Origin: Aequitasia blattaphilus
GTDB taxonomy: Bacteria; Bacillota; Clostridia; Lachnospirales; Lachnospiraceae
Assembly: GCF_024721305.1 (NCBI RefSeq)
Contig: NZ_JAMXOD010000010.1
Location: 54,522-118,521 of the forward strand
Length of the DNA stretch: 64,000 nt
Direction of reading: 5' to 3'
Shown piece after piece: positions 10,269-31,016 of this stretch (the stretch's first letter is position 1; each line of letters opens with the position of its first letter). The translations under genes and the position numbers were made by a program. The notes beneath the pieces are model-generated. The model had not been told where the DNA came from, ran no database searches, and worked only from the letters and a program-made list of their open reading frames with translations.

Positions 10269-10617
10269 AAATATTAATATCCTTTCGCGAAAATGTTCAA
10301 TATCCATTTCAATCATAACACATAGGAGATTTATTTCAATAGAAAATCTAAAAAAAAATTAGATGAAATAAAAAAAATTAAGAAATAAGTTACAAAACCC
10401 TTGCTTTTGAAAGAAAAAGAGTTTAATATGTACTGAAAGTGGTAATTATAGCTATAAAAACAGTTTAAAGAAGCGGAAAAAAGTGCACAATACCTACAAA
10501 AACCAGTGAACATGGAAGGGTTACTGGTAAAAGCGACTATAATGGAATCGAAAACTACAGCTGGTATGATTCTTAGATTTGGAGAACTTGGGGAAAGAAA
10601 AACAAGGAGGTTTTACT
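10269..10617 (+). promoter_or_regulatory. Intergenic control region with candidate xdhABC promoter
   Basis: This 349-bp AT-rich gap separates the regulator from xdhA. A candidate promoter is TTGCTT (10401-10406), a 17-nt spacer, and TAATAT (10424-10429). Downstream, ACCAGT (10502-10507) and ACTGGT (10523-10528) form an inverted pair that could be a regulator site in the leader. A strong AAGGAGG (10604) precedes xdhA. No known riboswitch was recognised. Confidence 0.5.
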
Positions 10618-12915
10618 ATGAGTATTGGGAAAAACATTACGAGAGTGGATGCTGAGTTAAAGGTCACAGGTGAAGCAAAGTATACAGCGGATTTAGTGCC
10701 AGGGAATGCTCTGGTTGGGAAGGTGGTACGAAGTACAATTGCAAATGGTGTGGTTAAAAGTTTTAACCTTGAAGCTGCACTTCAGGTTCCCGGAGTAATA
10801 AAGATTGTTACGTGCTTTGAAGTACCTGATTGCCAATATCCAACAGCAGGACATCCCTGGTCAGTAGAGGCATCACATCAGGATATTGCAGACCGGAAAT
10901 TGCTTAACACCAGGGTTCGAACATATGGAGATGATATTGCGGCAATTATTGCAGAGAACGATGTGGCAGCAGAGCGTGGGGCAAGAGAAATACAGGTAGA
11001 GTATGAGATATATGAACCGATACTGAGCACGAAAGAGGCTATGACACCGGGGGTGGTGGATATTCATAAAGAATTCCCGGGAAATGTTATAAAGAACACG
11101 GAATTTAGGGTTGGAGAGCGGAGCTATGAAGAGATAAAGGAGGCGGAGGAAGATGCCGTTGAGGTGGAAGCAACATATAGAACCCAGGCAGTACAGCACT
11201 GCCATATTGAAACACCTATATCCTATGCTTATATGGAAAATGACAGAATCGTAATCGTTAGCTCGACTCAAATTCCTCATATTGTCAGGAGAGTTGTTGG
11301 ACAGGCGCTTGATATCCCTTGGGGAAAGATACGTGTAATTAAGCCATATATTGGAGGAGGATTTGGAAACAAGCAGGATGTACTATACGAACCTTTAAAT
11401 GCCTATCTTACTACATTGGTTGGTGGAAGGCCAGTGAAAATGGAGATTTCTCGTGAAGAGACTTTGGCGTGTACCAGAACGCGTCATGCTATAGAGATGC
11501 AGACAAAGGCATTGGTTAGAAAAGACGGAAGACTTATCGCGAGACAATTTGCGGCATATTCGAATCAGGGAGCTTACGCATCTCATGCACATGCTATCGT
11601 GGCAAACTCTGCGAACGAATTCAAACAGATATACAATGATGCGGAAGGAATGCAGGCTCAGTGTTTTACGGTATATACAAATATGCCTACCGGCGGCGCA
11701 ATGCGGGGATATGGGATACCTCAGGGAGCATTTGCCTCGGAATGCCAGGCGGATGATATAGCGTATAAGCTGCAGATGGATCCTTTAGAGTATCGGTTGA
11801 TGAACTGTGTGAAAGAAGGATATGAGGATCCACATACACACATTAAGTTTCGTACAAATGGTATACGAGCATGTATTGATAAAGGCCGAAGAGAGTTTGG
11901 ATGGGATGAGAAGAGGGAAAAATATAAAAAGCAGACAGGTACAGTAAGAAGAGGCGTTGGAATGGCAATATTCTGCTACAAGACAGGAGTTTATCCAATA
12001 TCGCTGGAGACGGCATCATGCCGTATGGTTCTAAATCAGGACGGATCGTTACAGATGCAGATGGGAGCAACTGAAATAGGACAGGGCGCAGATACGGCAT
12101 TTACCCAGATGGCATCGGAAACAACGGGGATTACAGAAGATAAAATTCACATTGTTACGGCACAGGATACAGATATCACTCCCTTTGATACTGGTGCGTA
12201 TGCGTCAAGGCAGTCCTATGTATCAGGGAAGGCAGTTAAAAAGACAGGGGAATTGCTTGTTAAGAAGATACTTAAGTATGCTGCAGCTATGGTAGGTATG
12301 GAAAGGGAACAACTCAGATTAGTAAACAATGAAATTGTTGATAAAAATTCCAAGGAGCTTGTGCTGCCATTAGAAACAGTTGCGACAACTGCTTTTTATA
12401 GCCTAGAGCATTCGAAACATATTACTGCTGAGGCAACCAGTCAATGCAGGGACAATACATTTGCAAGTGGCGTCTGTTTTGCAGAGGTGGAGGTGGATAT
12501 TGGGGTAGGGAAAATAGAGATTTTAAATATTTTAAATGTTCATGACAGCGGCACCTTGATTAACCCTAAGCTAGCGGAAGCCCAGGTTCATGGAGGAATG
12601 AGCATGGGGCTTGGATATGCGTTAGGGGAGGAGCTTCTATTCAATCAGGAAACTGGAAAGCCATTAAATGATAACTTGCTGGATTATAAACTGCCAACTT
12701 CCATGGATACGCCAGACTTACAGGTGGGATTTATTGAACTGTCTGATGAAACGGGACCTTATGGAAATAAGGCTCTTGGAGAACCGCCAGCGATTCCTGT
12801 TGCCCCGGCGATTCGGAATGCAGTGTTGCATGCAACTGATGTTGCTATTGATTCTCTTCCGTTAGCTCCACAGAAACTTATATGTGAATTTAGGAAACAT
12901 GGACTAATACAGTAG
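10618..12915 (+). CDS. xdhA: Xanthine dehydrogenase-family molybdopterin-binding subunit
   Basis: A 765-residue large subunit without the 2Fe-2S fusion seen in the enzyme at 3387. Family motifs are visible: GEAKYTADLVPGNAL at the start of the aldehyde oxidase/xanthine dehydrogenase a/b hammerhead domain, YIGGGFGNKQDVLYEP and GGAMRGYGIPQGAF around the molybdopterin site, and LGEPPAIPVAPAI near the C-terminus. It should form a cytoplasmic heterotrimer with XdhB and XdhC encoded immediately downstream. ATG 10618 follows AAGGAGG. Substrate (xanthine, hypoxanthine or another N-heterocycle) cannot be assigned from sequence. Confidence 0.88.
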   Translation: MSIGKNITRVDAELKVTGEAKYTADLVPGNALVGKVVRSTIANGVVKSFNLEAALQVPGVIKIVTCFEVPDCQYPTAGHPWSVEASHQDIADRKLLNTRVRTYGDDIAAIIAENDVAAERGAREIQVEYEIYEPILSTKEAMTPGVVDIHKEFPGNVIKNTEFRVGERSYEEIKEAEEDAVEVEATYRTQAVQHCHIETPISYAYMENDRIVIVSSTQIPHIVRRVVGQALDIPWGKIRVIKPYIGGGFGNKQDVLYEPLNAYLTTLVGGRPVKMEISREETLACTRTRHAIEMQTKALVRKDGRLIARQFAAYSNQGAYASHAHAIVANSANEFKQIYNDAEGMQAQCFTVYTNMPTGGAMRGYGIPQGAFASECQADDIAYKLQMDPLEYRLMNCVKEGYEDPHTHIKFRTNGIRACIDKGRREFGWDEKREKYKKQTGTVRRGVGMAIFCYKTGVYPISLETASCRMVLNQDGSLQMQMGATEIGQGADTAFTQMASETTGITEDKIHIVTAQDTDITPFDTGAYASRQSYVSGKAVKKTGELLVKKILKYAAAMVGMEREQLRLVNNEIVDKNSKELVLPLETVATTAFYSLEHSKHITAEATSQCRDNTFASGVCFAEVEVDIGVGKIEILNILNVHDSGTLINPKLAEAQVHGGMSMGLGYALGEELLFNQETGKPLNDNLLDYKLPTSMDTPDLQVGFIELSDETGPYGNKALGEPPAIPVAPAIRNAVLHATDVAIDSLPLAPQKLICEFRKHGLIQ

Positions 12916-14287: not shown

Positions 14288-14877
14288 TAGTCTTCTGTTT
14301 TTTTTGCTTTTGACAGAAGTGTAAAATAATCCTCTGATGTGTCAATATCCAGGAAAGGAAGAGAATCCGTGAAAGAAACTCTTTGAATCAGCTGAGGATT
14401 TTTTGCGATTACAGAGCGTCCACCAGTGTCGCCTGTAATTTCAAGCAGTGATTCACGAAGAGAAGAGGGAAAGATGACAGGGTTTTGATTTTGCCCGTCA
14501 AGTGTTGGAATAATGATAGAACCTGGCTTTTGACGATGAACTTCTAACAAGCGTTTGATGACAGAAGAGCTCAAAAGAGGTTGATCTCCAACGAAGAACA
14601 TAAAGGCAGAGGAAGGATCACTCTGTAAAACTCCGAGACGAATAGAGGAGCTTTGTCCGGTTTGAGCCATAGGATTTAAAAGGGTCTGGAATCCGTATTG
14701 AGAAGCTAAGCACGAGTATTGCTCTTGGCGGGTGACTAGAAGCTTTTTGGAAAAAGAAACGTTGCTGATTGCGCGCATGGTATGTTCCAGTACCGGGATT
14801 CCATTAAAATCCAATGAGAGCTTATCTCGTTTTAAACGTTGGCTGTATCCAGATGCCAATAATATTGCTGTAATCAT
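14284..14877 (-). CDS. mocA: MocA/YgfJ-like molybdenum cofactor nucleotidyltransferase
   Basis: A 197-residue nucleotidyltransferase of the MobA/MocA fold: the start AILLASGYSQRLKRDKL matches the LxAxGxSxRMGxxK nucleotide-binding loop, and FFVGDQPLL is the metal-binding GDxP motif. In clusters with xanthine dehydrogenase-type enzymes this family attaches cytidine to molybdopterin or acts as the YgfJ accessory protein. It is encoded on the opposite strand to xdhABC with a 4-nt tail-to-tail overlap, so it needs its own promoter in the 14878-15112 gap. Confidence 0.82.
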   Translation of the reverse strand: MITAILLASGYSQRLKRDKLSLDFNGIPVLEHTMRAISNVSFSKKLLVTRQEQYSCLASQYGFQTLLNPMAQTGQSSSIRLGVLQSDPSSAFMFFVGDQPLLSSSVIKRLLEVHRQKPGSIIIPTLDGQNQNPVIFPSSLRESLLEITGDTGGRSVIAKNPQLIQRVSFTDSLPFLDIDTSEDYFTLLSKAKKTEDY

Positions 14878-15044
14878 AGTGAGCTTCCTCCCCTTCCTTT
14901 TTTGTTAATAATAGGCATAGAGGATTAAAAAGTCAACATTCACAACAAAAAAAGAGCATTTTACTACAAAAATATTGTGAAAATAAAATAGAAGTGGCAT
15001 AATCAGTTTGTTGAAAGATTATTTATTAAATTTTCATTTGGCTA

Positions 15045-15075
15045 TTGAAAAAACTTATTTTCGTTGTACTATATA
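15045..15075 (+). promoter_or_regulatory. Candidate recombinase promoter
   Basis: In the 235-bp gap between the divergent mocA-like and recombinase genes, TTGAAA (15045-15050) is followed at 18-19 nt by CTATAT/TATATA (15069-15075). AAAAGGAG precedes the recombinase ATG. The remainder of the gap is AT-rich and shows nothing else I can name. Confidence 0.5.
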
Positions 15076-15112
15076 AAGGCTAACTAAAATTGTACAAAAG
15101 GAGTAAACGAAA

Positions 15113-15985
15113 ATGAGTAAGTATCTAGATGAAGAAGAAGGTGAGCTTGCTAGGTTTCGGGAGTATCTGAAAACAGAAGAGAAAAGTAGGACTACTGTTG
15201 AGAAGTATGAAAGAGATGCAAGGAAGTTTCTTGTCTTTGTAAGAAGCAATACGGGAACAAGCGATAAGATATCAAAAACACTGGTTTTGGATTATAAGGA
15301 AGCACTGATGAAGGAGTATAGGACCAGTAGTGTGAATTCCATGCTGGCAGCGGTAAATAATTATCTAATCTTTTCTGAAAGAGCAGACTGCAAGGTGAAG
15401 CAGGTGAAAATTCAACGCCAGCCGTTTCTTGAAGAGGATAAGTGCCTGACAGTTGAAGACGTGGAGAAGCTTTTAAAGGTAGCAAAGAGCAAGGGAAAGC
15501 AAAGACTGGCAATGATTATTGAAACTCTTTATGGTACGGGGATTCGGGTGAGTGAGCTGGCATTTATTACGCTGGAGCATTTACGCTCAGGAGCAATTAA
15601 CGTCCACAACAAAGGGAAGACAAGGCTTATTGCCATCACAAAGAAGCTTCGCAAAAAGTTATTGCATTATGCAAAGGTAAACCAAATACAAAGCGGACCA
15701 CTATTTGTAACCCGTTCAGGGAAGTGCATGAACCGCAGTAATCTATGGCGTGAAATACAAAAAATATGTGAAGAGGCAGGGGTAGCCTCAAAAAAGGGAT
15801 TTCCACATAATTTCAGACGCCTGTTTGCAAGATGTTTTTATGCGGTTGATAAAGACTTGGTCAATCTAGCAGATATATTGGGGCATAGCAGTATTGAAAC
15901 AACTAGGATATACACCGCGACAACTTACAAAAATTTCGTAGAGAAATTAGAAAGTATGGACGATGTCTTAAGAAAAACAACATAA
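15113..15985 (+). CDS. Tyrosine recombinase, probable DNA invertase of the adjacent switch
   Basis: A 290-residue XerC/D-like recombinase with an N-terminal SAM-like core-binding domain (residues ~10-95) and a C-terminal catalytic domain. The catalytic set is visible: R145 in GTGIRVSEL, a beta-hairpin lysine near 168-170 (NKGKTR), H232 and R235 in HNFRR, H258 in LGHSS, and Y267 in TRIYT. The last codons and stop lie inside the left 24-bp inverted repeat of the segment that follows. There is no excisionase, relaxase or phage gene nearby, so a local invertase fits better than a mobile-element integrase. Because the repeat sequence is unchanged by inversion, the stop codon survives either orientation. 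Confidence 0.88.
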   Translation: MSKYLDEEEGELARFREYLKTEEKSRTTVEKYERDARKFLVFVRSNTGTSDKISKTLVLDYKEALMKEYRTSSVNSMLAAVNNYLIFSERADCKVKQVKIQRQPFLEEDKCLTVEDVEKLLKVAKSKGKQRLAMIIETLYGTGIRVSELAFITLEHLRSGAINVHNKGKTRLIAITKKLRKKLLHYAKVNQIQSGPLFVTRSGKCMNRSNLWREIQKICEEAGVASKKGFPHNFRRLFARCFYAVDKDLVNLADILGHSSIETTRIYTATTYKNFVEKLESMDDVLRKTT

Positions 15986-16000
15986 TTTCCATTATGTTGT
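15977..16000 (+). repeat. Left inverted repeat (IR-L), probable recombination site
   Basis: A 24-bp site made of arms ACAACATAAT and ATTATGTTGT around the asymmetric centre TTCC. Flanking A and T runs extend the local dyad to 13-bp arms. It is the exact reverse complement of the site at 16224-16247. Palindromic arms with a short asymmetric core are what tyrosine recombinases use, and the asymmetry sets inversion polarity. Confidence 0.9.
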
Positions 16001-16044
16001 TTTAGATATTATTTCAAGCTTGAAATTCAACAAATATTTTAATA

Positions 16045-16073
16045 ATTATAGCAAATTGACTGACAATTGTCTA
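16045..16073 (-). promoter_or_regulatory. Near-consensus sigma-A promoter inside invertible segment
   Basis: On the minus strand: TAGACA (16073-16068), exactly 17 nt, then TATAAT (16050-16045), with an extended -10 TG one base upstream (TGCTATAAT). The -35 differs from TTGACA at one position. A perfect 10-bp dyad GACAATTGTC (16062-16071) overlaps the -35 and could be an operator. In the current orientation it directs transcription antisense to the recombinase gene. Confidence 0.82.
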
Positions 16074-16115
16074 GAAAAAATCATTTTAATATTGGGGAAA
16101 TTATATTTGGGTAGC

Positions 16116-16185
16116 AAAAAATAGAGTCTTTGGTATGTGAAGAGGAGAAATATCGTTTCTCCTTATTTGTGTGTCCAAAGACTCT
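16116..16185 (-). terminator. Minus-strand intrinsic terminator inside invertible segment
   Basis: Outer 11-bp stem AGAGTCTTTGG (16123-16133) with CCAAAGACTCT (16175-16185), inner 8-bp stem AGGAGAAA (16143-16150) with TTTCTCCT (16156-16163). On the minus strand the stem is followed by a six-U run (A run at 16116-16121). There is no U run on the plus-strand side. After inversion this would stop recombinase read-through just before the operon promoter. Confidence 0.78.
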
Positions 16186-16213
16186 CCCTTTCTGATGAGC
16201 TACCAATTTTTTT

Positions 16214-16264
16214 AAAAGCAGTTACAACATAATGGAAATTATGTTGTAATTGCTTTTTTTGTGT
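16214..16264 (+). terminator. Plus-strand terminator built from the right repeat in this orientation
   Basis: The right repeat is extended by flanking bases on both sides into a 20-bp stem (16214-16233 with 16238-16257, one G-U pair, loop GGAA), followed by more T residues (GCTTTTTTTG). Half of the lower stem comes from inside the invertible segment. Inversion would replace those bases with non-pairing ones, leaving only about 10 AT-rich base pairs set back from the U run. Confidence 0.75.
16224..16247 (-). repeat. Right inverted repeat (IR-R), probable recombination site
   Basis: Exact reverse complement of the 24-bp IR-L, with centre GGAA instead of TTCC. It sits 37 bp upstream of the first gene of the surface operon and overlaps the plus-strand terminator described for 16214-16264. 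Confidence 0.9.
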
Positions 16265-16284
16265 AGGAAAGGAAGAGGATGTAG

Positions 16285-17472
16285 ATGAAGAAGAGAGTGA
16301 AAAGTATTGGGTTTGCCTTGGTTTTGTTGGTCATGATTTTCCAACCAGGAGGAACTTTAGGAGAGCCTGAAGGTACAGAAGAAGAGGTGGAAATCATACA
16401 AGAGGAAGCTCTCGAGGAGGAAATCAAGGAAGAAGAGGAAGCTGAAATAGTGGAGGCAGAACAGGAAGAAGAACAGGAAGAAGAACAGGAGCCACAGGAA
16501 TCCCAGGAAGATTTAACTGGAAGTACCATATGGCCAGGGACAAATGTACAGCAGAAGGATTTGAAAGACCGATATCATTTAACCTTTTCAGAAGATTTTT
16601 CCGAGGTAATGAAAGCAATAGAATCAGACTATAGAAAAGAGTACAAGCTGCCAGAAGAAGGAGATATTGTCCTCAAAGCAACGAATTGGCAAGATATTAT
16701 TGCGGTGTATCTGCTGAAGAAACAACAAAAAGGAGAGACAGAGCTGTTCCTTTCAGGGGATGATCAGGAAGATTTAAAGAGGGTCTATCGGGAAATGAAC
16801 CGAGTTGTTGCTTTGGAGCCAGCACGCATTTTGTATCTTAGTGTAAAAGAGGAAGCGGTTCGTTTTCAGTCTGTAAGTGTGGAAGCGCTGATTCGTCAAG
16901 ATCAAAGTCTGGAACAGCCAGTATACAAAGAAAGTGAACAAGAGTTTTTGCGAGCCTATAGTAGTGAAGAATGCAGACTTCTGTGTGCGGCCGAGACTGG
17001 AATAGAAGAATTTTTAAATCAATCGGAAGAAGAGATTGATGGCAAACGCCAGGCAGTAAGAAAAAATGCATTTCAAGCCATCGGAAAGGTTTCTTATATC
17101 TGGGGAGGAAAGTCCGATGCAATTGGACTGGACTCAAGGTGGAAAGATAAAAATGCATTTGGATTAGACTGTAGTGGCTTTGTCTCTTGGGCATTTTTAA
17201 ATGGAGTTCATGAAAATATAGGCGGGGGAACCACAGGACAGTGGATGGCATCCGTACCCGTTACACAAGAAGAAGCAAGACCGGGAGATTTGGTTTTCCT
17301 AGGACCACCGACAGAATCAGACGAGATTCCTCACGTAGGAATTGTAGCGGGGAAAGACAGATTAGGTGGACTCATTGCAATTCACTGCAATGCATCCGAC
17401 AAGGGGGTAACGGTAGAGGCAGCGTATCCAGCTGGATTTCGATATGTTCGCCGTCCTATCATATTTCAATAA
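16285..17472 (+). CDS. Exported NlpC/P60 cell-wall peptidase, first gene of surface operon
   Basis: A 395-residue protein with a signal peptide (residues ~1-26), then a very acidic Glu-rich stretch (~27-75), a middle region of no recognised family, and a C-terminal NlpC/P60 domain. The catalytic cysteine is C296 in FGLDCSGFVSWAF and the histidine is H350 in IPHVGIVAG; a further histidine in AIHCNAS completes a plausible triad. Such enzymes cleave peptidoglycan stem peptides. Here it may open the wall for assembly of the surface fibre encoded downstream. GGAAGAGG precedes the ATG. Expression should depend on the invertible segment 37 bp upstream. Confidence 0.85.
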   Translation: MKKRVKSIGFALVLLVMIFQPGGTLGEPEGTEEEVEIIQEEALEEEIKEEEEAEIVEAEQEEEQEEEQEPQESQEDLTGSTIWPGTNVQQKDLKDRYHLTFSEDFSEVMKAIESDYRKEYKLPEEGDIVLKATNWQDIIAVYLLKKQQKGETELFLSGDDQEDLKRVYREMNRVVALEPARILYLSVKEEAVRFQSVSVEALIRQDQSLEQPVYKESEQEFLRAYSSEECRLLCAAETGIEEFLNQSEEEIDGKRQAVRKNAFQAIGKVSYIWGGKSDAIGLDSRWKDKNAFGLDCSGFVSWAFLNGVHENIGGGTTGQWMASVPVTQEEARPGDLVFLGPPTESDEIPHVGIVAGKDRLGGLIAIHCNASDKGVTVEAAYPAGFRYVRRPIIFQ

Positions 17473-17499
17473 ATCAAAAGAAAAAGGAGAGTCGTATCA

Positions 17500-18162
17500 A
17501 TGAGTAGAGCAACTGAAGTACTGGCATTACCAATCGTAGACATTAGAAAAGGAAGTCATAAGGGTGTGGCGAAAAACATATTGCTTAATCCCGAGACGGG
17601 AGAACTACATTTGACACTGGAAAAGGAACATCCAGGAGAAGTGGAGTTACTAGGCGTGACAGACATTACAGGAGTGGGAGAGAATTATCTTTTAATTCCC
17701 AGTCAAGAAGTTCTAAAAGGACTTTACACTCATGAGGAGGTTCTTTCTATTTTAAAAAGCAGCTTTGTGCTGTTAGGGGTGGAAGTGGTGGATCAAGTGG
17801 GAAATCAATTAGGAGAGATTTCCGATTTCACCTTAGGTGAAGGAAGGGGAATCGGCAGTATCTTTTTAGACAGCGGACAAGAGATTGAAGGAGGACATAT
17901 CCTGTCGGTATGCCCAGACATTGTGTTTGTCGATATTCGGGAGGGAAGTAAGGCAGTGGAAATCATTCAAAAGGATACTCAGAACACAAAAATCGAGAAG
18001 CAGGAAGAACAAAGCCTGCCAATTGGTCTTGTATTAAAGGAAGACATCCGAAGTGCAGATGGAGAGTTTCAATTGAAAAAGGGAAGTGTGATTACAGAAG
18101 AGGTAATGGAGGAAGCAGAGGCTCATGATGCATTATTGCTGCTGGCTCTTCATGCAGAATAA
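17500..18162 (+). CDS. PRC-barrel-like cytoplasmic protein
   Basis: A 220-residue protein without signal peptide or membrane segment. Two PRC-barrel-like units are suggested: residues ~8-70 (LPIVDIRKGSHKGVAKNILL) and ~92-150 (LLGVEVVDQVGNQLGEISDF). PRC-barrels are small beta modules that dock on partner proteins or RNA. It lies between the NlpC/P60 gene and the DivIVA-like genes with clean ribosome binding sites, so it may belong to a cytoplasmic scaffold that positions the secretion apparatus. That role is inference. Confidence 0.65.
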   Translation: MSRATEVLALPIVDIRKGSHKGVAKNILLNPETGELHLTLEKEHPGEVELLGVTDITGVGENYLLIPSQEVLKGLYTHEEVLSILKSSFVLLGVEVVDQVGNQLGEISDFTLGEGRGIGSIFLDSGQEIEGGHILSVCPDIVFVDIREGSKAVEIIQKDTQNTKIEKQEEQSLPIGLVLKEDIRSADGEFQLKKGSVITEEVMEEAEAHDALLLLALHAE

Positions 18163-18187
18163 ATAAGAGGAAGGGAGTGTAAGAATC

Positions 18188-18685
18188 ATGGAGTTTGAAG
18201 AAGAACGAAGGGGATACAACAAGGAACAGGTTGATGAATACATTACCACACTTCGGGATGAATACCAAAATCTTTTGAAAGAGCTTCAGGCAGGAACAGA
18301 GGCTATAGAAGATTTAAAGCGAAGCAAAAGAAGAATGTCGGACAAGCTGGAAAGCCTTCAAAAAGAGAAAAAAGAATTGTCTCAGCAGGTGGAGCAAATG
18401 AGATTAACAGAAAACACATCCTATAGTGAAGCTATCGCCTCTGCTCTTGTGACAGCAGAAATATCGGCACAGCAGATTATTGCAAAGGCAAAAAAGGAGG
18501 CAAGACTTATTGGGGATGCAGCGACAAGAGATTTAAGTGACATTATACAGGCTAAGCAGGAAGCCCTGGATGAGATTAAACAGGTATCCGGGAAACTTTT
18601 CAAGCTGCTGAGAGAAGAGGAAGCGCTAAAGGCTGAAAGAGTGTCCATGCCAAATCCTTTCAGGGAGGGAAAAAAGGAGGAATAA
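18188..18685 (+). CDS. DivIVA-like coiled-coil protein
   Basis: A 165-residue protein starting with a DivIVA-like segment (FEEERRGYNKEQVDEYITTL), followed by continuous predicted coiled coil (~25-150). DivIVA proteins bind curved or polar membrane and recruit partners. AAGGGAG precedes the ATG. It is the first of three consecutive DivIVA-like genes ahead of the sipW-like peptidase, which suggests a dedicated localisation scaffold for the surface structure. Confidence 0.72.
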   Translation: MEFEEERRGYNKEQVDEYITTLRDEYQNLLKELQAGTEAIEDLKRSKRRMSDKLESLQKEKKELSQQVEQMRLTENTSYSEAIASALVTAEISAQQIIAKAKKEARLIGDAATRDLSDIIQAKQEALDEIKQVSGKLFKLLREEEALKAERVSMPNPFREGKKEE

Positions 18686-18689
18686 TTCG

Positions 18690-18887
18690 ATGAGCATAGA
18701 AGAGAAAATGAAATTTACTAAGGTAAAGAATGGAGAGCTGTATCTATCGGAAGAAGTAGATTCTTATGTGAATAGCCTAAGAACCTCCTATGCAGAATTA
18801 ATGGAAGAAGAAAAGCAGCTGCAAAGGCGACTGAAGCTCTTGTCAAATGAGCTTTTGAAACTGCTAAAGGAGGAAGTGGCGGAATGA
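18690..18887 (+). CDS. Short DivIVA-N-like protein
   Basis: A 65-residue protein whose core (FTKVKNGELYLSEEVDSYVN) is clearly paralogous to the start of the next gene (FTKIRNGKMYLAEEVDLYIN). It has only the membrane-targeting-like head and one short coiled coil. AAAGGAGG lies upstream, and it overlaps the next gene by 4 nt, so it is translated in the operon rather than being a broken fragment. It may modulate assembly of the longer paralogue. Confidence 0.68.
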   Translation: MSIEEKMKFTKVKNGELYLSEEVDSYVNSLRTSYAELMEEEKQLQRRLKLLSNELLKLLKEEVAE

Positions 18888-19603
18888 CTGAGTTTACAAA
18901 GATTCGAAACGGAAAAATGTATTTGGCCGAGGAGGTGGATCTTTACATCAACATGCTCAAGGATTCCTATACAGAAACAGTGGAAGAAGGAGAGCATTTG
19001 CAGGAACAGCTAAAGCAGGAGAGAACCCTCCACTACGAGGAGCAGAAGGAGTTACAGCAGCTACTTATAAAGGAACAGGATACCAGAAGAAAGGTAGAAG
19101 AGGAAGTAAAAGCCCTTCGTGTGGAAAGAGGAAAAGAAGGGGAAGCCGATATCTTGTATGAGGCACAGATAGCAGAATTAAAGAAAGCTTTGGAGCAACT
19201 TCAAATGGACTGTCAAAGAATTCAAGAGGAGAAAGAAGAGCAGGAGAGGGAAATCAAACAGCTTACACAGAAGTTGAGTCAAAAAACACCAGTTGAGTAT
19301 GTGGATTCCAGAGCAGAGAGATATATCAGCCTGATTGATCGGGCAGCTCAGATGGCAGAAGACTATGTAAAGGATATTGAAGAAAGAGCAGAGGAACAGT
19401 TAAGAAGTTCCAGAAACCAGGCCTTTGAGATTATCCGGGAGGCGAAGGAAGAGTCAGAGGGTATGGTAGAAGAGGCAGAAGAAAAAGTACAGGATATCTT
19501 AAAAGCAGCCAGAGAAGAGTATGGGGAAATACGTGCACTGATTGAAAAATCCAGTCAGGAGTACGCAAAGCTTTCCGAGGCAGAGAGAGAACTGGGGTTT
19601 TGA
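18884..19603 (+). CDS. DivIVA-like coiled-coil protein, long paralogue
   Basis: A 239-residue protein with the FTKIRNGKMYLAEEVDLYIN head followed by long Glu/Lys/Gln-rich coiled coil (~30-235). The later part (AEDYVKDIEERAEEQLRSS) is like other DivIVA or ATP-synthase-b-like helices. It starts within the stop of the 65-residue paralogue (ATGA overlap). Its position directly before the signal peptidase gene fits a scaffold for localised secretion. Confidence 0.72.
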   Translation: MTEFTKIRNGKMYLAEEVDLYINMLKDSYTETVEEGEHLQEQLKQERTLHYEEQKELQQLLIKEQDTRRKVEEEVKALRVERGKEGEADILYEAQIAELKKALEQLQMDCQRIQEEKEEQEREIKQLTQKLSQKTPVEYVDSRAERYISLIDRAAQMAEDYVKDIEERAEEQLRSSRNQAFEIIREAKEESEGMVEEAEEKVQDILKAAREEYGEIRALIEKSSQEYAKLSEAERELGF

Positions 19604-19633
19604 AGAAAATAAACCATGAAAGGGGGAGAAGAG

Positions 19634-20356
19634 ATGGCAAAAAGTTTGGAAGAGATTGAAGCCGCCTTTCGGAATCAATATCAAAAAGATAAGAAAAATC
19701 CAGAGGAAGAGATAAAAGAAGAAAAAGTTGAAAAGGCAGCCATGAAGGAAGCCATCACAGAAGAGGGGGAAGGGGAATCAAAAGTAACAGAAACCGTAAC
19801 AGAGAAGAAACCTGAAAAAGCAGGACGTGCTGCCATTATATCAGACATTATTTTTTACTTTGCATTAATCGCTATGGTGGTTTGTGCGGTTCTATTTTCC
19901 AGAGGAGCCTTTGGAACCCAGACCTTTGGAGGGTACCGATTCTATGAGGTCTTAACCACCTCCATGGAAAGCGTATACCCGAGGGGAAGCTTGGTGTTGA
20001 TAAAAAAGACAGAGGCCAGTGAGCTAGTGGTAGGAGATGACATTACCTTTGCAAAGGACTCCAGCAACTTGATTACCCATCGGATTATTGAGATAAAGGA
20101 GGACTATGAAGGAAGTGGAAAGAGAGCCTTTGTGACCAAAGGAGTGGACAACGCAACGGCAGATGCAGATGTGGTTCTTGCTGATAACGTTATGGGAAAA
20201 GTCACGAAGGGAATTCCAAGGATGGGGGCGGCTCTGAGCTGGATAGGAAGTAACCTGTGGCTAATTATAGTTCTGTTTTTATCCTTAATGGCATTTTCCT
20301 TTTTTATAAAAATCTTTTGGAGGGAGAGTAAGAAAGAAAAGATAAAAAAGAACTAA
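19634..20356 (+). CDS. sipW: SipW-type (ER-type) signal peptidase I
   Basis: A 240-residue protein with a charged cytoplasmic N-terminus (~1-65), a membrane segment (~68-90), the catalytic domain, and a second C-terminal membrane segment (~205-228). S110 in TTSMESVYPRGSLVL is the nucleophile, and H149 in LITHRIIEI replaces the lysine of ordinary bacterial peptidases, giving the Ser-His dyad of SipW/ER-type enzymes. SipW enzymes process TasA-like fibre proteins. Two downstream products have matching leaders (GTFAWQA at 20487; GTLTWRG at 26705). The ATG at 19634 follows AGGGGGAG; an upstream ATG at 19616 overlaps that site. Confidence 0.88.
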   Translation: MAKSLEEIEAAFRNQYQKDKKNPEEEIKEEKVEKAAMKEAITEEGEGESKVTETVTEKKPEKAGRAAIISDIIFYFALIAMVVCAVLFSRGAFGTQTFGGYRFYEVLTTSMESVYPRGSLVLIKKTEASELVVGDDITFAKDSSNLITHRIIEIKEDYEGSGKRAFVTKGVDNATADADVVLADNVMGKVTKGIPRMGAALSWIGSNLWLIIVLFLSLMAFSFFIKIFWRESKKEKIKKN

Positions 20357-20373
20357 GAAGAGAGATAAAAAGC

Positions 20374-20445
20374 AGGATTCAAATAGAAATAAATAAAGGA
20401 GGATGAATGTAAAAGTATAGAGAGTTTTGAATCCTATTTTTTACA
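20374..20445 (+). promoter_or_regulatory. Possible attenuator and internal promoter between sipW and the TasA-like gene
   Basis: AGGATTCAAA (20374-20383) pairs with TTTGAATCCT (20426-20435) and is followed by ATTTTTTAC, an intrinsic-terminator-like structure with an unusually long loop of about 42 nt. The loop contains AAAGGAGG abutting ATGAATG and a stop after a few codons. TTTGAA followed at ~16 nt by TATTAT downstream may be an internal promoter. Together these could raise fibre-protein output relative to the peptidase. Confidence 0.4.
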
Positions 20446-20486
20446 TATATTATAAAGAAACTTAAAATAAACAAGGAGGAAGTAAC

Positions 20487-22436
20487 ATGAAAAACAAGCA
20501 TAAAAAAGTGGTTTCAGGAGTCACAGCCATCTGTTGTGCAGCAGCAGTACTGGTTGCAGGAACTTTTGCATGGCAGGCAATTGCCAATGCAATTAACCCC
20601 TTTAGTGATGCAGAGGTAACGGGAGGGTCAGGAGGAAATCTCCATGATGACTTTGACAGTAAAACAGGAACAAAGAAGATTTACGTAGAAAATACCGGAG
20701 ATGCTGATATATTTGTCCGGGTGAAATTAGAAGAGGTCTTTGTAAAGGATAGTGCAAAAGCACCAACGACCCCGGACTGGAAGCTGCATATCCCAGCCGG
20801 TAAGAAAGTAGCAGACTGTGAGGGGACCGATCAGTTCCATGGTATCTATGGAGATGCTTTTACATGGACTATGGGAAGCAGTGATGCCTATAGCTACAAA
20901 TCCATTGTGGATTCTGATGAATGGAAGGCAGCTGTGGTAAAGGATGATACAGAAGCCACCAGAAAAGCTCAGGATCAGTTAGTGGGAGATGCCTTAGGAA
21001 GTGCAACCAGTGGATCAACCATAGTAAAGCTAGGGGATGCCAAAACAACAGAAAAGACAGCACCTGCTTGTAGTGTTATTACCATGAAGGAATATACAGA
21101 AAAAAGTGATGCCGATAAGCAAACCTTTAGCGGATGGGTTTATGACGTAGATGGATATGCTTACTGGTCACAGCCTTTAGCAAAGGATGGAACCACAGGT
21201 CTTCTATTGAACGGTGTTACTTTGCCAACAGAAAACAGTGAGACCTACTACTATGCCATTAATGCAACTATGGAATACGTAGATGGTAAAGATATCGCAG
21301 CCTGGACAGGAGTAGGAGAGGACGGAGAGCGTACCCTTACCTTAAATGGAAAGGATCAGATGACGGCTTCTAAAAATGATAAAGGAGAGAAGATTAAATC
21401 TGGTTCTCAGGTAGGAAACACTACGATAGAAGGAAGCACCAATGCCAAGTCAATGCTAAACATGATTGCAGGTAATGTGAAGGATTTAGAAACCACGGAT
21501 GCACCAAAGAATCTCAACATAGGAGATAAGGTCAGTGCACCTACAATTAAAGATAAGGATGGAAATACAGTAGCCATTACTCAGTGGGAAAGCAGTAATC
21601 CAAGTGCAGTAGAGGTGGATTCAAAAACAGGAGAAATGACGGTAAAAGGAACGGGAACGGCAACCATTACCGGAAAAGACAAGGATGGAAATGAAGTAAC
21701 CTTTGAGGTAACGGTAACAGACCAGCTAACACCAGAGAGTGAAAGTGTAACGGTAACAGCAGGAGGAAGTACCGATCTTCCAAGTATTAAGGATGCCCAA
21801 GGAAAAGTAGTGGATCCAAAGAACCTCACCTGGACCAGCAGTGACAGCAGTAAGGTAACAGTGGATGGAGGAACTGGAAAGGTTACAGGAGTGGCAGCAA
21901 CAGAGACTCCGGTAAAGATTACGGGAACAGATGGAAATGGTAACAAAGCAGAGTTTACCGTTACCGTAGGGGCAGCCCAAAAGACAGCAACCCAAAAGCT
22001 GGATGAAGCAGTGGTAGAGAAGTACCAGGCTGAACCAACGATGAAAGAGGGTTGTAAGATTGCAGATGATCAGCAGTGGCCAAACACCACAATTATTCCT
22101 TACTATACAGAAGATCCTCTGATGAACAGTCAGGATTTTGGAACCATTGAAGATAATTATGGAGTGATAGAGCTGACGAAGCTTTTAAAGGAAAGCGAAT
22201 ATAGCAAGGATGTTACCTTTGCAGCAGGAGAAAGAATTGTAAAAATAGAAAATGGAAGTCTTTATATTTGGTATTTACCAGACTACGACGATTTTGAAGA
22301 TGGTGGAACAAACGAAGGTTATCATCCAGAAGGAACAATTATAGCGACTTATACGGATCCGGTGACAAAGGAGACCGCATCTAAGAATATCAAGATAGGA
22401 ATCTGGTATAAGGGAACCATTCTTGGAAGAGATTAG
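20487..22436 (+). CDS. TasA/CalY-like exported fibre protein with two Big2 domains
   Basis: A 649-residue protein. The leader ends with GTFAWQAIANAINPFSD, typical of SipW-processed TasA/camelysin-like proteins, and the next ~250 residues (KIYVENTGDADIFVRVKLEE...) resemble the TasA-type beta sandwich. Two bacterial Ig-like (Big2) domains follow at ~338-412 (ITQWESSNPSAVEVDSKTG) and ~413-496 (LTWTSSDSSKVTVDGGTG), then an unassigned ~150-residue tail. No LPxTG-like anchor is present. It likely forms or caps an extracellular fibre. Its position between sipW and the DGR target suggests these three act together. Confidence 0.8.
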   Translation: MKNKHKKVVSGVTAICCAAAVLVAGTFAWQAIANAINPFSDAEVTGGSGGNLHDDFDSKTGTKKIYVENTGDADIFVRVKLEEVFVKDSAKAPTTPDWKLHIPAGKKVADCEGTDQFHGIYGDAFTWTMGSSDAYSYKSIVDSDEWKAAVVKDDTEATRKAQDQLVGDALGSATSGSTIVKLGDAKTTEKTAPACSVITMKEYTEKSDADKQTFSGWVYDVDGYAYWSQPLAKDGTTGLLLNGVTLPTENSETYYYAINATMEYVDGKDIAAWTGVGEDGERTLTLNGKDQMTASKNDKGEKIKSGSQVGNTTIEGSTNAKSMLNMIAGNVKDLETTDAPKNLNIGDKVSAPTIKDKDGNTVAITQWESSNPSAVEVDSKTGEMTVKGTGTATITGKDKDGNEVTFEVTVTDQLTPESESVTVTAGGSTDLPSIKDAQGKVVDPKNLTWTSSDSSKVTVDGGTGKVTGVAATETPVKITGTDGNGNKAEFTVTVGAAQKTATQKLDEAVVEKYQAEPTMKEGCKIADDQQWPNTTIIPYYTEDPLMNSQDFGTIEDNYGVIELTKLLKESEYSKDVTFAAGERIVKIENGSLYIWYLPDYDDFEDGGTNEGYHPEGTIIATYTDPVTKETASKNIKIGIWYKGTILGRD

Positions 22437-22456
22437 CAGAGGAAGGAGTATTAAGA

Positions 22457-24652
22457 ATGATCAAAAAAATGAAATTAAAGAAAGGAACGGCACTGCTACT
22501 GACAGGTGTATTGGCAATAAGTGGGATAATTGCAGCAATTGGAGCAACACTAGCGGCAACCCCTATTAACTGGACAGCTACAGTACCAGAGGGGGCACCA
22601 GCAAATGTACGATTTCATGTAGATGCAGCTGGTCTTAAGGACGAAAAGGGAAAAGAACTCTCCGTTTCAGCGTCTGGCGTATCCACATGGGGAAGCAGTG
22701 ACGCGACTATTGCCCGCGTGAAAGGGCGTGACGAAGGAAAAGGAACATATTTGGCAGTAAAGCCAGGAGTCTTTGTGGCTTACCGCAGTACCCTTGAAGG
22801 ACAATTAGGTGGTACAACAGCCATGGTCTATGATTCCACCAAGCCCTATACCTACACCGTAGCTAAAAACCATTCCGTGATTAAGGATAAAGGGGGAACG
22901 GATACCATTCCCCTTACAATGAAAGACATGAATGATAAGGAAATCACAGATGCAGTGGCATGGTCTTCTGATGATACCAGTGTGGCAACGGTTCATGAGA
23001 GTACTGGTACTATTACTGCAGTAGGAGAGGAAGGACTAGCCAATATCGCCGGAAAGTTTACTGACTGTTATGGCCAGCCCCAGAAGATTCAGTACTCAGT
23101 AGTGGTAGGAAGAATTGTAGCAAGTGATGTGGTAGGCCCTGATGGAAATGGCAAGTATTGGACACCAATGGAAGCACCAAAGAACATCTGGCGGGAAGCG
23201 GATGAAGATGGAAATCCAAAGGAGCCGGCAAGCTACATCTATGATGAGAATAATCCTCTTACAGGAGAAGATAGTACTCCTGCAATAAAGGGAGAGGATG
23301 GAAAGTACTATGTGGAGCTGGAAGATAGTAAAAACATCTATGAACCAGTCAAAGAAGATGGAACGATAGATGAGGGAACTAAAATCTGGGGTGGACTAGA
23401 CCTTAAACCTGGAAATGAAGATGACAAGGAAGTCAAGAACTTTGGAACCAAGATCAGTCCGGATTATTGGGCAGACTTCAATGAAAACATCTATGGTCAA
23501 ATCAGCAGAACGACAGGTAAAACCAGCACCTTAACTGGTGGAGGAATTGATGAGGATCCCCTAACAGATCCAGTGAAGCCGATTCTGGATAACACAGCCA
23601 CAGATGGACACTACTACTTTGGGCCACTAACTGATAGTGATGGAGTTTCTTATTACATAGGAGATGACTGGAAGGAGGGTGGAACAGGAGATGGCATCTT
23701 AAATACAGATCATTCCGCAATCCCTCATAGCAGCGATCTTATTTACTACCGAAATGAGGATGGGTCAATGGATACAGAAAAGCCAGTCACTGAGATTCCA
23801 GCAAGCAGCATTGTATTAGGAACACCAGTGAGCGATACCATTGGATTGGGAGAGAAGGAAGGTTCCCCCAGCATCACTGTACTGCCAAATGATACGACAA
23901 ATCAGACCGTGGTATGGAGCAGCTCCGACACAAGTGTTGCAACAGTAGATGCAGACACAGGAGAAGTTACAGGAGTAGCAGATGGAACGGCAACCATAAC
24001 GGCAACCATCACCAATAAAAATGGCACCACAGTGGCATCCTCCTATGCCATAACGGTAAAGGATCCTTGGGGAGGAATTGGAAAGGTACCAGGAGAAACT
24101 TTTACAGCAAGTGGAAAAGAATGGACGATCTTAAAGGTAGATGGGAATGGAAATGCCTTGGTAGTTACCAAGTATCTTCAAGGTACCTCACAGTTTAATC
24201 CGACAGAAGGTGCAGGAAATGCTTATGTCAGCAGCACCTTAAGGACGACTATGAATAACTTTTATAGCACTCTGGAAACCAGTGACACTGCATCAAAGAA
24301 TTCGGGAGAGAGGGCAAAGATCTGGATTACCGATTTGGCACAGCCTTCAAACTTCCTGAATAACACTCCAGCATACAATGCAGCAGGAGGCTTATCAGCA
24401 GTAGACTCGGGAGGCCTAAAAACCTGTTTCCCTCTGAGCTATCAAGAGGCTAACACTTATTTTAGTTCAAATGCAGCAAGGGTGGCCTATCAAGAGGGTG
24501 CATCCTCAAGCTATTCTTATTTTCTGCGCTCGCCGGGCTCTGCTTCTCATTATGCAGCAATTGTCTATATTTCGGGGGCGCTTTACGATACTTTTAATTA
24601 TGTTACTTCTACCCTTGGCGTGCGTCCCGCTTTATGGATTAAACTGCCCTAA
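22457..24652 (+). CDS. DGR target: exported Big2 protein with C-terminal variable C-type-lectin-like domain
   Basis: A 731-residue exported protein: leader (LLLTGVLAISGIIAAIGATLA), Big2-like domains at ~131-218 and ~445-536 (VVWSSSDTSVATVDADTG), then a C-terminal domain from ~553 (GKEWTILKVDGNGNALVV) to the end, DUF6273-like, a C-type-lectin-type fold common in Firmicute DGR targets. The last 45 residues contain the variable repeat, matching the template at 25313-25430 apart from mainly A-site changes. Invariant framework residues LRSPGSAS and LGVRPALWI surround variable positions. No sortase motif is present, so it is either released or held by the fibre. It lies directly upstream of avd, as in classical DGRs. 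Confidence 0.92.
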   Translation: MIKKMKLKKGTALLLTGVLAISGIIAAIGATLAATPINWTATVPEGAPANVRFHVDAAGLKDEKGKELSVSASGVSTWGSSDATIARVKGRDEGKGTYLAVKPGVFVAYRSTLEGQLGGTTAMVYDSTKPYTYTVAKNHSVIKDKGGTDTIPLTMKDMNDKEITDAVAWSSDDTSVATVHESTGTITAVGEEGLANIAGKFTDCYGQPQKIQYSVVVGRIVASDVVGPDGNGKYWTPMEAPKNIWREADEDGNPKEPASYIYDENNPLTGEDSTPAIKGEDGKYYVELEDSKNIYEPVKEDGTIDEGTKIWGGLDLKPGNEDDKEVKNFGTKISPDYWADFNENIYGQISRTTGKTSTLTGGGIDEDPLTDPVKPILDNTATDGHYYFGPLTDSDGVSYYIGDDWKEGGTGDGILNTDHSAIPHSSDLIYYRNEDGSMDTEKPVTEIPASSIVLGTPVSDTIGLGEKEGSPSITVLPNDTTNQTVVWSSSDTSVATVDADTGEVTGVADGTATITATITNKNGTTVASSYAITVKDPWGGIGKVPGETFTASGKEWTILKVDGNGNALVVTKYLQGTSQFNPTEGAGNAYVSSTLRTTMNNFYSTLETSDTASKNSGERAKIWITDLAQPSNFLNNTPAYNAAGGLSAVDSGGLKTCFPLSYQEANTYFSSNAARVAYQEGASSSYSYFLRSPGSASHYAAIVYISGALYDTFNYVTSTLGVRPALWIKLP
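24514..24634 (+). repeat. DGR variable repeat (VR)
   Basis: A 121-nt copy at the 3' end of the target gene aligned with the 118-nt TR at 25313-25430. I count 22 substitutions, 19 at TR adenines, plus one extra 3-nt codon in VR within the AAT run. The three non-adenine changes are all G to T (TGG to TTT, AGT to ATT). The 3' ends share GGCGTGCGTCCCG, the GC-rich part expected for initiation of mutagenic homing, after which the sequences diverge. Confidence 0.95.
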
Positions 24653-24731
24653 TTAATCATTACTCTTCTATCTTCAAATCTTAAATCATTCAAAAGGCGT
24701 GAAGAAGGGAAAAGGTAAACATAAGAGAAAT

Positions 24732-24781
24732 CACCGTGGGTAAAGCCACGGTGCAGTCCCCGCCGTAAGGCGGGTGGCTGC
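24732..24781 (+). other. Tandem hairpins between DGR target and avd
   Basis: Hairpin 1: CACCGTGG (24732-24739) with CCACGGTG (24746-24753), loop GTAAAG. Hairpin 2: CCCGCC (24759-24764) with GGCGGG (24769-24774), GNRA-type loop GTAA, extended outward by GCAG/CTGC and a bulged T to 12 pairs (24753-24781). No U run follows, so this is not an intrinsic terminator. Some DGRs have a hairpin or cruciform downstream of VR that promotes homing; this pair is farther from VR (about 100 nt), so that role is speculative. Confidence 0.7.
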
Positions 24782-24802
24782 AAAAAATGGAAGGAGACTG
24801 AG

Positions 24803-25210
24803 ATGTCGGAACAGGAAAAAAGTGAATTGCTTATTATAACGAAAGCAAAGGATTTATGTAGCTATGTCATGGTAATTACGGAGAAGTGTCCGAAACGATT
24901 TCGATTTACCTACGTAAGCCGTTTGCAAAATCTGGCATTGGAAGTAGTAGAGCATATATACAGAGCCAATGATATATTTCTGGGAGGTGTGGATGTACAA
25001 CATAACTATGAGAGAAGACTTGCCCATCAAAGACAGGCGTTTACAGACCTTCGATTGTTGGGGTATATGACACAGGCCTCGTTGGAGCAAAAATGTATCA
25101 TTGCCAAACAATATGAGATGATTTCCAGACAGGTCTTCGATTGTCAAAACCTGCTGGGGGCATGGATGAACAGTGATAAAAGAAGAATGATGAAACAAAA
25201 AAATAATTGA
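24803..25210 (+). CDS. avd: DGR accessory variability determinant (Avd), four-helix bundle
   Basis: A 135-residue, all-helical, lysine/arginine-rich protein with the spacing of four long helices and a basic C-terminus (NSDKRRMMKQKNN). The segments FRFTYVSRLQNLALEVVEHIYRAND and RRLAHQRQAFTDLRLLGYM, quoted in parts, are typical of the 23S-rRNA-IVP/four-helix-bundle family to which Avd belongs. Avd pentamers bind the reverse transcriptase and template RNA and are required for mutagenic cDNA synthesis. AAGGAG lies upstream of the ATG. Its place between target and TR matches the classical target-avd-TR-RT order. Confidence 0.9.
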   Translation: MSEQEKSELLIITKAKDLCSYVMVITEKCPKRFRFTYVSRLQNLALEVVEHIYRANDIFLGGVDVQHNYERRLAHQRQAFTDLRLLGYMTQASLEQKCIIAKQYEMISRQVFDCQNLLGAWMNSDKRRMMKQKNN

Positions 25211-25312
25211 GAAGAGATTCAAAGTGTGTTACGAGATAAAAGCAATATAAGGAGTTTTTATCCGGTAAGTCCCTTTGAATAGGGATAGGGAAATGATTGT
25301 ATGGGCAGCACG

Positions 25313-25430
25313 TTCTTATTGGCTGCGCTCGCCGGGCTCTGCATCTAATAATGCAACAAATGTCAATAGTTCGGGGGCGCTTAACAATAATAATAATGTT
25401 AATAATACAAATGGCGTGCGTCCCGATTTA
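25313..25430 (+). ncRNA. DGR template repeat (TR) within the non-coding template RNA
   Basis: This lies in the 346-bp gap between avd and the reverse transcriptase (25211-25556). Read in the VR frame, TR encodes YWLRSPGSAS then an Asn-rich run ending NGVRPDL; the excess AAT/AAC codons are the usual DGR template design, because A mutagenesis of AAY codons spreads over many residues without stops. The region upstream (25211-25312) includes a small hairpin TCCCT/AGGGA. The downstream spacer (25431-25556) includes AAGGAG/CTCCTT; such TR-RT spacers are needed for template RNA function in studied DGRs. Confidence 0.94.
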
Positions 25431-25556
25431 CTCTCATTGCTAGAAACCTGATTCTAAGTGGAAGGGTCTGTGCGCAGAGTAAAGGAGTCATTCTCCTTTT
25501 CGGCAATGCTGGAAAAAAATTGTGGATGATAGCAGAGACGTTGTTTAGATACATGG

Positions 25557-30274: not shown

Positions 30275-30290
30275 GGATGATGAAGACAGA

Positions 30291-31016
30291 ATGAAAATGA
30301 ACATAAGGATTGCAGGAGTTTGTATTCTTCTGGGAATAATCGGATATAGTACCTATCGGCTGCTGGCATCAAATCAGGTTTATCAGGAGGAACAAAAGAC
30401 CCATCAGGAGCTTTTGACCTATAAGCCAGAGCCAGAGGAACAAACTAAGGCTATTATAAACCAGTCCCTTTTAGATCTGCAAAAGAAGAATCCGGATGTG
30501 GCGGGGTGGATTACCATCCCCGGCACCGGAGTTGATTACCCTTTTTTATGGGCAAATGATTATCAAACCTATCTTCGAACGGATATTAATAAGGAGCCAA
30601 GCATTTCAGGAGCCATCTTTTTAGATTACCGGTTTGACCGGGAGCTGGCAGGGTTTAAGGGCATCCTGTTTGGCCACAGTATGGACAATGGAAGTATGTT
30701 TGGAAGCCTTGCAAACTATCAGGAGAGGGAGTTCTTTCAGGGACACCAGGAGGGAACCATCCATCTGCCCTATGAGAACTTAAAGCTCTCTCTTGTAGCT
30801 GCTATGGTGGTACAGTGGGATGACGCAGAAGTATATGGGGTGGCAGATACGAAGGAGAAAAAGGAAGCTTTTTTGGAAACGTTAAGGGAGAGAAACATCC
30901 ATGGGAGAGAGAGGGTTCCACAAGATTTGACACAAGAGGATCGCTTTATTCTCCTGTCTACCTGCAGCTATGTGCAGGAAGAAGAACGCACAGTGGTGGT
31001 GTTTCGCATCCAGTAA
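30291..31016 (+). CDS. srtB: Class B sortase
   Basis: About 241 residues: one N-terminal membrane helix (~8-25), then a sortase B-type catalytic domain. The active-site residues are H129 (FGHSMDNG), C225 (LLSTCSY) and R239 (VVVFRIQ). Class B sortases anchor proteins with NPxTN-like signals or polymerise pilins; the upstream protein has TPKTND, a good substrate. ATG 30291 is preferred to an upstream in-frame start at 30243 that overlaps the pilin gene heavily; AAGGATGA lies between them. Confidence 0.92.
   Translation: MKMNIRIAGVCILLGIIGYSTYRLLASNQVYQEEQKTHQELLTYKPEPEEQTKAIINQSLLDLQKKNPDVAGWITIPGTGVDYPFLWANDYQTYLRTDINKEPSISGAIFLDYRFDRELAGFKGILFGHSMDNGSMFGSLANYQEREFFQGHQEGTIHLPYENLKLSLVAAMVVQWDDAEVYGVADTKEKKEAFLETLRERNIHGRERVPQDLTQEDRFILLSTCSYVQEEERTVVVFRIQ

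Follow-up and report, generated by a model that had tools for sequence, protein, structure and literature searches.

A predicted invertible promoter switch ahead of a surface-fibre operon carrying a diversity-generating retroelement in Aequitasia blattaphilus

Could a short stretch of DNA beside a recombinase gene decide when Aequitasia blattaphilus builds a surface fibre, and when it mutates one of the proteins encoded with that fibre? The question is raised by a window of 64,000 nucleotides from this member of the Lachnospiraceae (NCBI RefSeq assembly GCF_024721305.1, contig NZ_JAMXOD010000010.1, positions 54,522 to 118,521 of the forward strand), which is the whole stretch analysed here and from whose first letter all coordinates below are counted. 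We consider it very probable that the locus is a phase-variation switch, in which a recombinase inverts the interval 15977-16247 and thereby gates a surface-fibre operon that carries a diversity-generating retroelement (DGR). A sequence-only reading of the same window had drawn attention to this arrangement. Its observation is confirmed by our analysis, and its interpretation is supported.

That reading described exact 24-bp inverted repeats with opposite TTCC and GGAA cores around 223 bp, and the repeats are indeed found. Two exact copies of 24 nt, spaced 223 nt apart, lie at 15977-16000 (the left recombination site, IRL, plus strand) and 16224-16247 (the right site, IRR, minus strand), and enclose the predicted invertible segment at 16001-16223. 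Each site is a palindrome of 10+4+10 nt, IRL reading ACAACATAAT-TTCC-ATTATGTTGT, and the sole asymmetry resides in the four central bases, TTCC on the left and GGAA on the right. No other such pair occurs in the 3.2-Mb genome, even when up to 2 mismatches are allowed. The stop codon of the recombinase gene falls inside IRL, and the first gene of the downstream operon starts at 16285, 37 nt past IRR. The window copy thus has the general form of an inverton, namely near-identical inverted repeats of 10-40 nt flanking a short intergenic segment.

The adjoining gene (15113-15985, plus strand), which had been taken for a tyrosine recombinase, matches the Pfam Phage_integrase family (6e-25) and encodes an Xer-like tyrosine recombinase, a predicted invertase. 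The nearest named NCBIfam models are XerA/XerD-like and are matched far below their curated cut-offs, the NCBIfam models for tyrosine-type DNA invertases give weak matches, and the relatives with solved structures include XerA-like, XerD and XerH chains. Four aligned homologues keep the R, HxxR, H and Y motifs, which we take to be the catalytic motifs of a tyrosine recombinase, and the protein is predicted to act on the adjoining sites. To our eye the half-sites resemble the XerD arm of dif; a loose dif-like scan returned 106 and 117 matches against 151 and 163 in a reversed control, a pattern too loose to be informative. Recombinase homologues (E <=1e-25) occur in 103 of 398 genomes sampled from the family, with a single one in the genome of the window.

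Sites of the same type accompany these homologues. We searched just downstream of recombinase genes for paired ACATAAT-N4-ATTATGT sites, with at most 3 mismatches each and mutually inverted cores, at loci selected as the best recombinase matches plus one further locus (L116). Such a pair was found downstream of 21 of the 26 matches with at least 600 bp of downstream sequence, matches that are not independent, as L063-L065 are near-identical and L069 and L070 belong to one genus. In 379 control windows drawn from these loci there was no inverted-core pair and one pair of any kind. The five matches lacking an inverted pair are L076, with direct sites, L078, with one site, both matches at L084 and the second match at L075. 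Recombination between two sites by a tyrosine recombinase requires matching cores. The core sequence varies from locus to locus, yet within each pair the cores match and are inverted.

Some loci depart from the simple pair. The two switch-type sites at L076 (genome G205) have the same core orientation, which predicts deletion instead of inversion. Three sites stand in series at L069 and L070 (G417 and G048), two of them sharing core and orientation, and from this arrangement two alternative inversions of unequal length look possible. The contig ends within 400 bp downstream of the recombinase for 8 of 34 matches; such early ends would fit mixed orientations, and other repeats could equally explain them. 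In a genome of the same genus as the window (G001), the end of L066 and the start of L117, on contigs C35 and C38, bear a left and a right site that match each other and apparently belong to a single switch, split between contigs that both end inside the segment. An Rfam search of these ends gave no match; they resemble, as we see them, the ends of group II introns, and an element has probably inserted into this switch.

Both orientations of a homologous switch occur naturally. L063, L064 and L065, from metagenome-assembled genomes named Ruminococcaceae, uncultured Clostridia and Oscillospiraceae, have a homologous locus in common, with a recombinase in L063 and L065 that is 49% identical to that of the window; the L064 contig stops at the left site. 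When L063 is compared with L065, the flanks are co-linear (plus strand, 96-98% identity) and the segment is reversed (minus strand, 95% identity). The promoter-like sequence TTGACA-17-TACTAT accordingly faces the downstream gene in L065 and the opposite way in L063, and of these two only L063 has a terminator-like hairpin directed at that gene. The sequence-only reading had looked to related genomes for the opposite orientation. This expectation held for the homologous switch, while the window copy is present in its own genome assembly in the OFF orientation only, and its inversion is something we infer.

What, then, would inversion change? The segment was said to hold a strong promoter and a terminator, and predicted counterparts of both are there: the top-scoring promoter-like site, and a hairpin followed by seven T. 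The former, TAGACA-17-TATAAT with an extended -10 (TG), occupies 16045-16073 on the minus strand. It ranks first of 12 promoter-like matches in 14850-17000, agrees with the consensus at 11 of 12 positions in addition to the extended -10, and has a score matched by the best site in 3 of 1000 shuffled segments (dinucleotide shuffling). As drawn it faces away from the operon, in agreement with the earlier description of this orientation as OFF. A promoter inside the segment that is oriented to the downstream gene is a further mark of invertons, and one is found here by consensus match alone; the modelled inverted form places it ahead of 16285 with a predicted leader of 99 nt. The promoter score of the orthologous switch in G001 was equalled in 25 of 1000 shuffles; the switch in a genome of another genus (G409) has a promoter score no better than chance (335 of 1000). 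Judged by promoter score, that is from consensus matches alone, 22 switches including the window are drawn OFF in 16 cases, ON in two and unclear in four.

Two terminator-like structures lie between this promoter and the operon. The long hairpin (16110-16204, then seven T; the whole feature, 16110-16213, is on the plus strand) is terminator-like in both directions and would insulate in either orientation, and the region 16095-16265 folds with a z of -8.4. Inversion would still leave a 63-nt hairpin (-23.3) and T-run reading toward the operon, now placed ahead of the promoter. The other structure (16214-16260, plus strand) is built around IRR itself. As drawn, 16214-16257 forms a stem of 20 bp (-24.3 kcal/mol) that adjoins a T-run; modelled inversion leaves 10 bp (-10.3 kcal/mol) and displaces the T-run from the stem. 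Inversion breaks this stem because the segment contains ten bases of its left arm but not the bases with which they pair. The equivalent stem in G409 is merely weakened, from -22.1 as drawn to -17.1 inverted (-26.7 and -20.6 in a fixed window), and a breakable terminator of the IRR type was looked for in the G001 switch and none was seen. Among the 16 switches drawn OFF, operon-facing hairpins of up to 100 nt and at least 12 kcal/mol were found in 10 OFF forms and 7 ON forms, so that the terminators of the family are not orientation-specific; a narrower scan (up to 60 nt) found operon-facing terminators in 7 of 16 OFF forms and 2 of 16 ON forms. Given the weakened stem in G409, its absence from G001 and the 10 against 7 in the family, the breakable terminator characterises the window and is not family-wide. 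A search for structured RNA in 14800-27000 had RmaA as its best match, with E 0.048 and a score of 30.7 against a gathering threshold of 57, which we took as chance.

These structures invite other explanations. The repeats might be nothing but a bidirectional terminator or a protein-binding palindrome that never inverts: IRR does form a terminator-like stem, and terminators commonly take the form of a palindrome that overlaps the end of a gene. We hold this to be highly improbable, since it is at odds with an asymmetry confined to the core and inverted between copies at 21 of 26 recombinase matches, against 0 of 379 in the control, and with a homologous segment reversed between the near-identical genomes of L063 and L065. 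Many tyrosine recombinases are integrases, and the recombinase and its sites could likewise descend from the integration and excision apparatus of a mobile element, the segment being its relic. The direct sites at L076 would suit such an origin, which we nevertheless regard as extremely improbable given that sites are inverted at 21 of 26 matches and direct at 1 of 26, that three species of two genera share the recombinase together with the switch and surface operon, and that neither the exact site nor a close relative of the recombinase turned up in a search of viral contigs. Both of these readings were rejected because sites of this family recur beside homologous recombinases and one homologous switch is found inverted. 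A different proposal accepts inversion and has it act through termination only, with an upstream promoter, such as that of the recombinase itself, reading through the segment. It can draw on the IRR stem, complete in the drawn form only, on the chance-level promoter in the G409 segment, and on C. difficile flagellar switching, which acts after initiation according to an excerpt of PMC7446863. With its terminator-like form in both directions, the internal hairpin would stop upstream read-through in either orientation; the segments of the window and G001 contain near-consensus promoters beyond chance; and the L063 and L065 promoters face opposite ways. We consider regulation by termination only to be quite unlikely.

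The preferred reading remains a promoter that is turned round by the recombinase, and its steps may be laid out as follows. The recombinase (15113-15985) would recombine the two palindromic sites and so invert 15977-16247. In the OFF state the promoter would fire leftward, antisense to the recombinase gene, while two serial terminator-like structures face the operon; the antisense transcript could bias switching. In the ON state the promoter would face 16285 behind its predicted leader, with the internal hairpin now upstream of it, where it would insulate the operon from upstream transcription without blocking the promoter. The IRR terminator would lose half its stem on inversion and should therefore let promoter transcripts pass. 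We infer that the promoter is used, that transcripts terminate as described, that the fibre is assembled and that transcription reads through to the DGR.

The genes under this predicted control are co-directional, lie on the plus strand and are separated by mostly short gaps. The first (16285-17472) encodes an NlpC/P60 protein whose N-terminus reads like a signal peptide. It is followed by genes for a PRC-barrel protein (17500-18162, with orthologues in G001 and G409), a DivIVA-like coiled coil (18188-18685), a further DivIVA-like protein (18884-19603, slightly below the Pfam cut-off) and a SipW-like signal peptidase I (19616-20356), which scores above the cut-off for TIGR02228 (2.7e-25) and below it for the SipW model (1e-23). 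Next come two genes for Big_2 proteins, one a surface protein with a SipW-type N-terminus (20487-22436; TIGR04090, below cut-off) and the other combining Big_2 with DUF6273 (22457-24652). Beyond the DGR lie genes for a Cna_B/FctA pilin-like protein of 1189 aa with a sortase-type motif and membrane tail at its C-terminus (26705-30274), a class B sortase (30243-31016; above the Pfam cut-off, slightly below that of NCBIfam SrtB), a LytTR response regulator (31056-31844) and a second FctA-type isopeptide-domain protein (32714-33631; NCBIfam below cut-off). The combination by which sortase-assembled pilus loci are recognised, an isopeptide pilin with a sorting signal and a dedicated sortase, is present in the form of Cna_B/FctA and strep_pil_rpt matches and the class B sortase. 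By its likeness to streptococcal pilus islands, we read the operon as encoding a fibre that is anchored by sortase and has a signal peptidase of its own. On the other side of the switch are genes that are apparently unrelated, for a YgfK-type putative selenate reductase subunit (377-3373) and the xanthine dehydrogenase XdhA (10579-12915).

The DGR that had been reported within this operon was recovered with all its parts, each on the plus strand. The reverse transcriptase (RT; 25557-26708) matches Pfam RVT_1 (1.3e-13) and is assigned to the DGR type by its neighbours, namely the accessory protein Avd (24803-25210), the template repeat (TR; 25323-25430) and the variable repeat (VR; 24524-24634). 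RT and accessory protein, the latter recognised by Avd models below their cut-offs, stand beside the target, the Big_2 and DUF6273 protein, whose gene carries VR at its 3' end. Comparison of VR with TR gives 20 substitutions, of which 19 fall on adenines of the template, the pattern by which DGRs are known, and one 3-nt length difference. Taken together with RT and Avd, the repeats make up a complete and canonical DGR. The DUF6273 domain forms the end of the target protein and also appears in papers on DGR-bearing phages, in the extracts of them consulted here.

Under the preferred reading, the operon would build a SipW-processed, sortase-anchored fibre whose DGR mutates one surface protein. 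As the DGR and its target both lie inside the gated operon, hypermutation and display are therefore predicted in ON cells only. Least secure in this chain is the dependence of the DGR on the switch, since the 9 kb between them make read-through uncertain. The switch might instead control the first genes, with the DGR and the two Ig-like proteins served mainly by an internal promoter near 20440 and hypermutation left ungated. A promoter-like site, TTTACA-17-TAAAAT, does occur at 20440-20468 (10 of 12 consensus positions), in the 130-bp gap before the first Big_2 gene, and the RT gene starts about 9.3 kb from the switch. Between 17000 and 36000, both strands together contain 22 promoter-like matches against a mean of 30.7 in shuffled sequence, so that a match of this kind is expected by chance; the site is not conserved in the three gaps before the orthologous Big_2 gene, two copies in G001 and one in G409, where promoter-like matches reach at most 8 of 12; and the genes are co-directional with mostly short gaps. 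An internal promoter that frees the DGR from the switch therefore strikes us as rather unlikely. For the inverting switch upstream, we incline slightly towards a two-tier mode of diversification in a bacterium of Gram-positive type, in which stochastic inversion would gate retro-mutagenesis through promoter reversal and a breakable terminator, and variants would arise only in a reversible ON subpopulation.

How widely are switch, operon and DGR found together? In G001, the recombinase, switch, PRC-barrel, DivIVA-like and signal peptidase genes, both Big_2 genes and Avd share one contig, and RT, CnaB and sortase genes follow one another on a separate contig (C46). A second copy in the same genome extends over two further contigs, one with the recombinase and the other running from the PRC-barrel gene through that of a DUF6273-type protein. 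In G409 the recombinase and a switch of 416 bp are accompanied by the same set of surface genes, slightly reordered, and a search of that genome for an RT match at E <=1e-12 found none. The PRC-barrel and DivIVA-like genes (17500-19603 in the window) accompany the surface operon in all three species. For comparison, RT matches were sought in 76 genomes, that is 75 with a recombinase homologue at E <=1e-56 plus G002, and were present in 27. Inspected by eye among the recombinase matches listed for these 76 genomes, a DGR-like RT stands near the recombinase in the genus of the window only, the nearest other pair on one contig being about 40 kb apart, in G040. Because G001 has the DGR and G409 no detected RT, the switch and surface operon are the broader unit and the DGR an accessory, which by its distribution would have been gained in the genus of the window or lost in G409. 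NlpC/P60 served poorly as a marker of relatives, with matches in 54 of 145 genomes that mostly covered the hydrolase domain alone, and eight NlpC-match loci examined at length had no recombinase match.

Other homologous switches precede other genes. From 18 listed downstream proteins, 14 were scanned; nine had a Pfam match and five had none. Six of the nine look like surface functions (signal peptidase, camelysin, choline-binding repeats, polysaccharide synthesis, cadherin-like, VWA/Cna_B), and the remaining three are TIR-TPR, radical SAM and SIS proteins. The TIR-TPR protein stands behind a switch of the same family at L077, and is perhaps a phase-variable defence gene. At L081 a switch of the same family lies ahead of the radical SAM gene.

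Several known systems share parts of this design. The fim switch of E. coli, with FimB and FimE, likewise sets a recombinase gene beside a short inverted-repeat element that holds the promoter of a surface fibre; it differs in its recombinase subfamily, in its chaperone-usher pili and in having no known DGR. Streptococcal pilus islands of the FCT type combine a signal-peptidase-like protein, an isopeptide-domain pilin and a class B sortase, to which the window operon adds NlpC/P60, PRC-barrel and DivIVA-like genes. We know of no DGR or invertible promoter in such islands.

Closest to the switch itself is a clostridial inverton group (139, with invertase group 35), in which a tyrosine-type recombinase lies beside short invertons and 32 of 33 members come from Clostridia (main text of PMC11892184). 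Jin et al. (2025) present reads in which such invertons change orientation, and their inverton in Clostridium sp. D5, with 26-nt repeats 205 nt apart, is close in size to the switch of the window (PMC11892184). The window switch likely belongs to the same or a sister family, compared by description, and is therefore known in kind. Unlike the window switch with its surface and DGR cargo, the invertons in the main text of Jin et al. come with no mention of a retroelement, sortase, pilus or pilin. The flagellar and cwpV switches of C. difficile offer another parallel, the flagellar switch having orientation-dependent termination in the excerpt of PMC7446863. Here, as in the window, a clostridial recombinase, RecV, switches surface structures. 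RecV acts on loci elsewhere in the C. difficile genome, whereas the window genome has one adjoining recombinase and one site pair was found in it. For the DGR, the nearest counterpart is in Bacteroides, where a DGR diversifies type V tip pilins; as in the window it mutates a cellular surface fibre, there at the tip, but the pili are Gram-negative ones of type V, and the passage on them makes no mention of an invertible promoter over the DGR (PMC12632263). A literature search of partial coverage found no paper joining a DGR to an invertible promoter. What looks new is thus the surface and DGR cargo together with the breakable terminator, and the wiring of an invertible switch to a DGR is unusual.

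It is a compact arrangement for one sequence to serve both as a recombination site and as the centre of a terminator; this could be sought elsewhere, although it is not general in this family. Recombinase homologues are widespread and the cargo behind their switches is varied. If the switch of A. blattaphilus turns mutator and target on together, the timing of DGR mutation could be tested in orientation-locked cells. If this reading is true, two well-known modes of bacterial surface variation would be tied together in a single locus.
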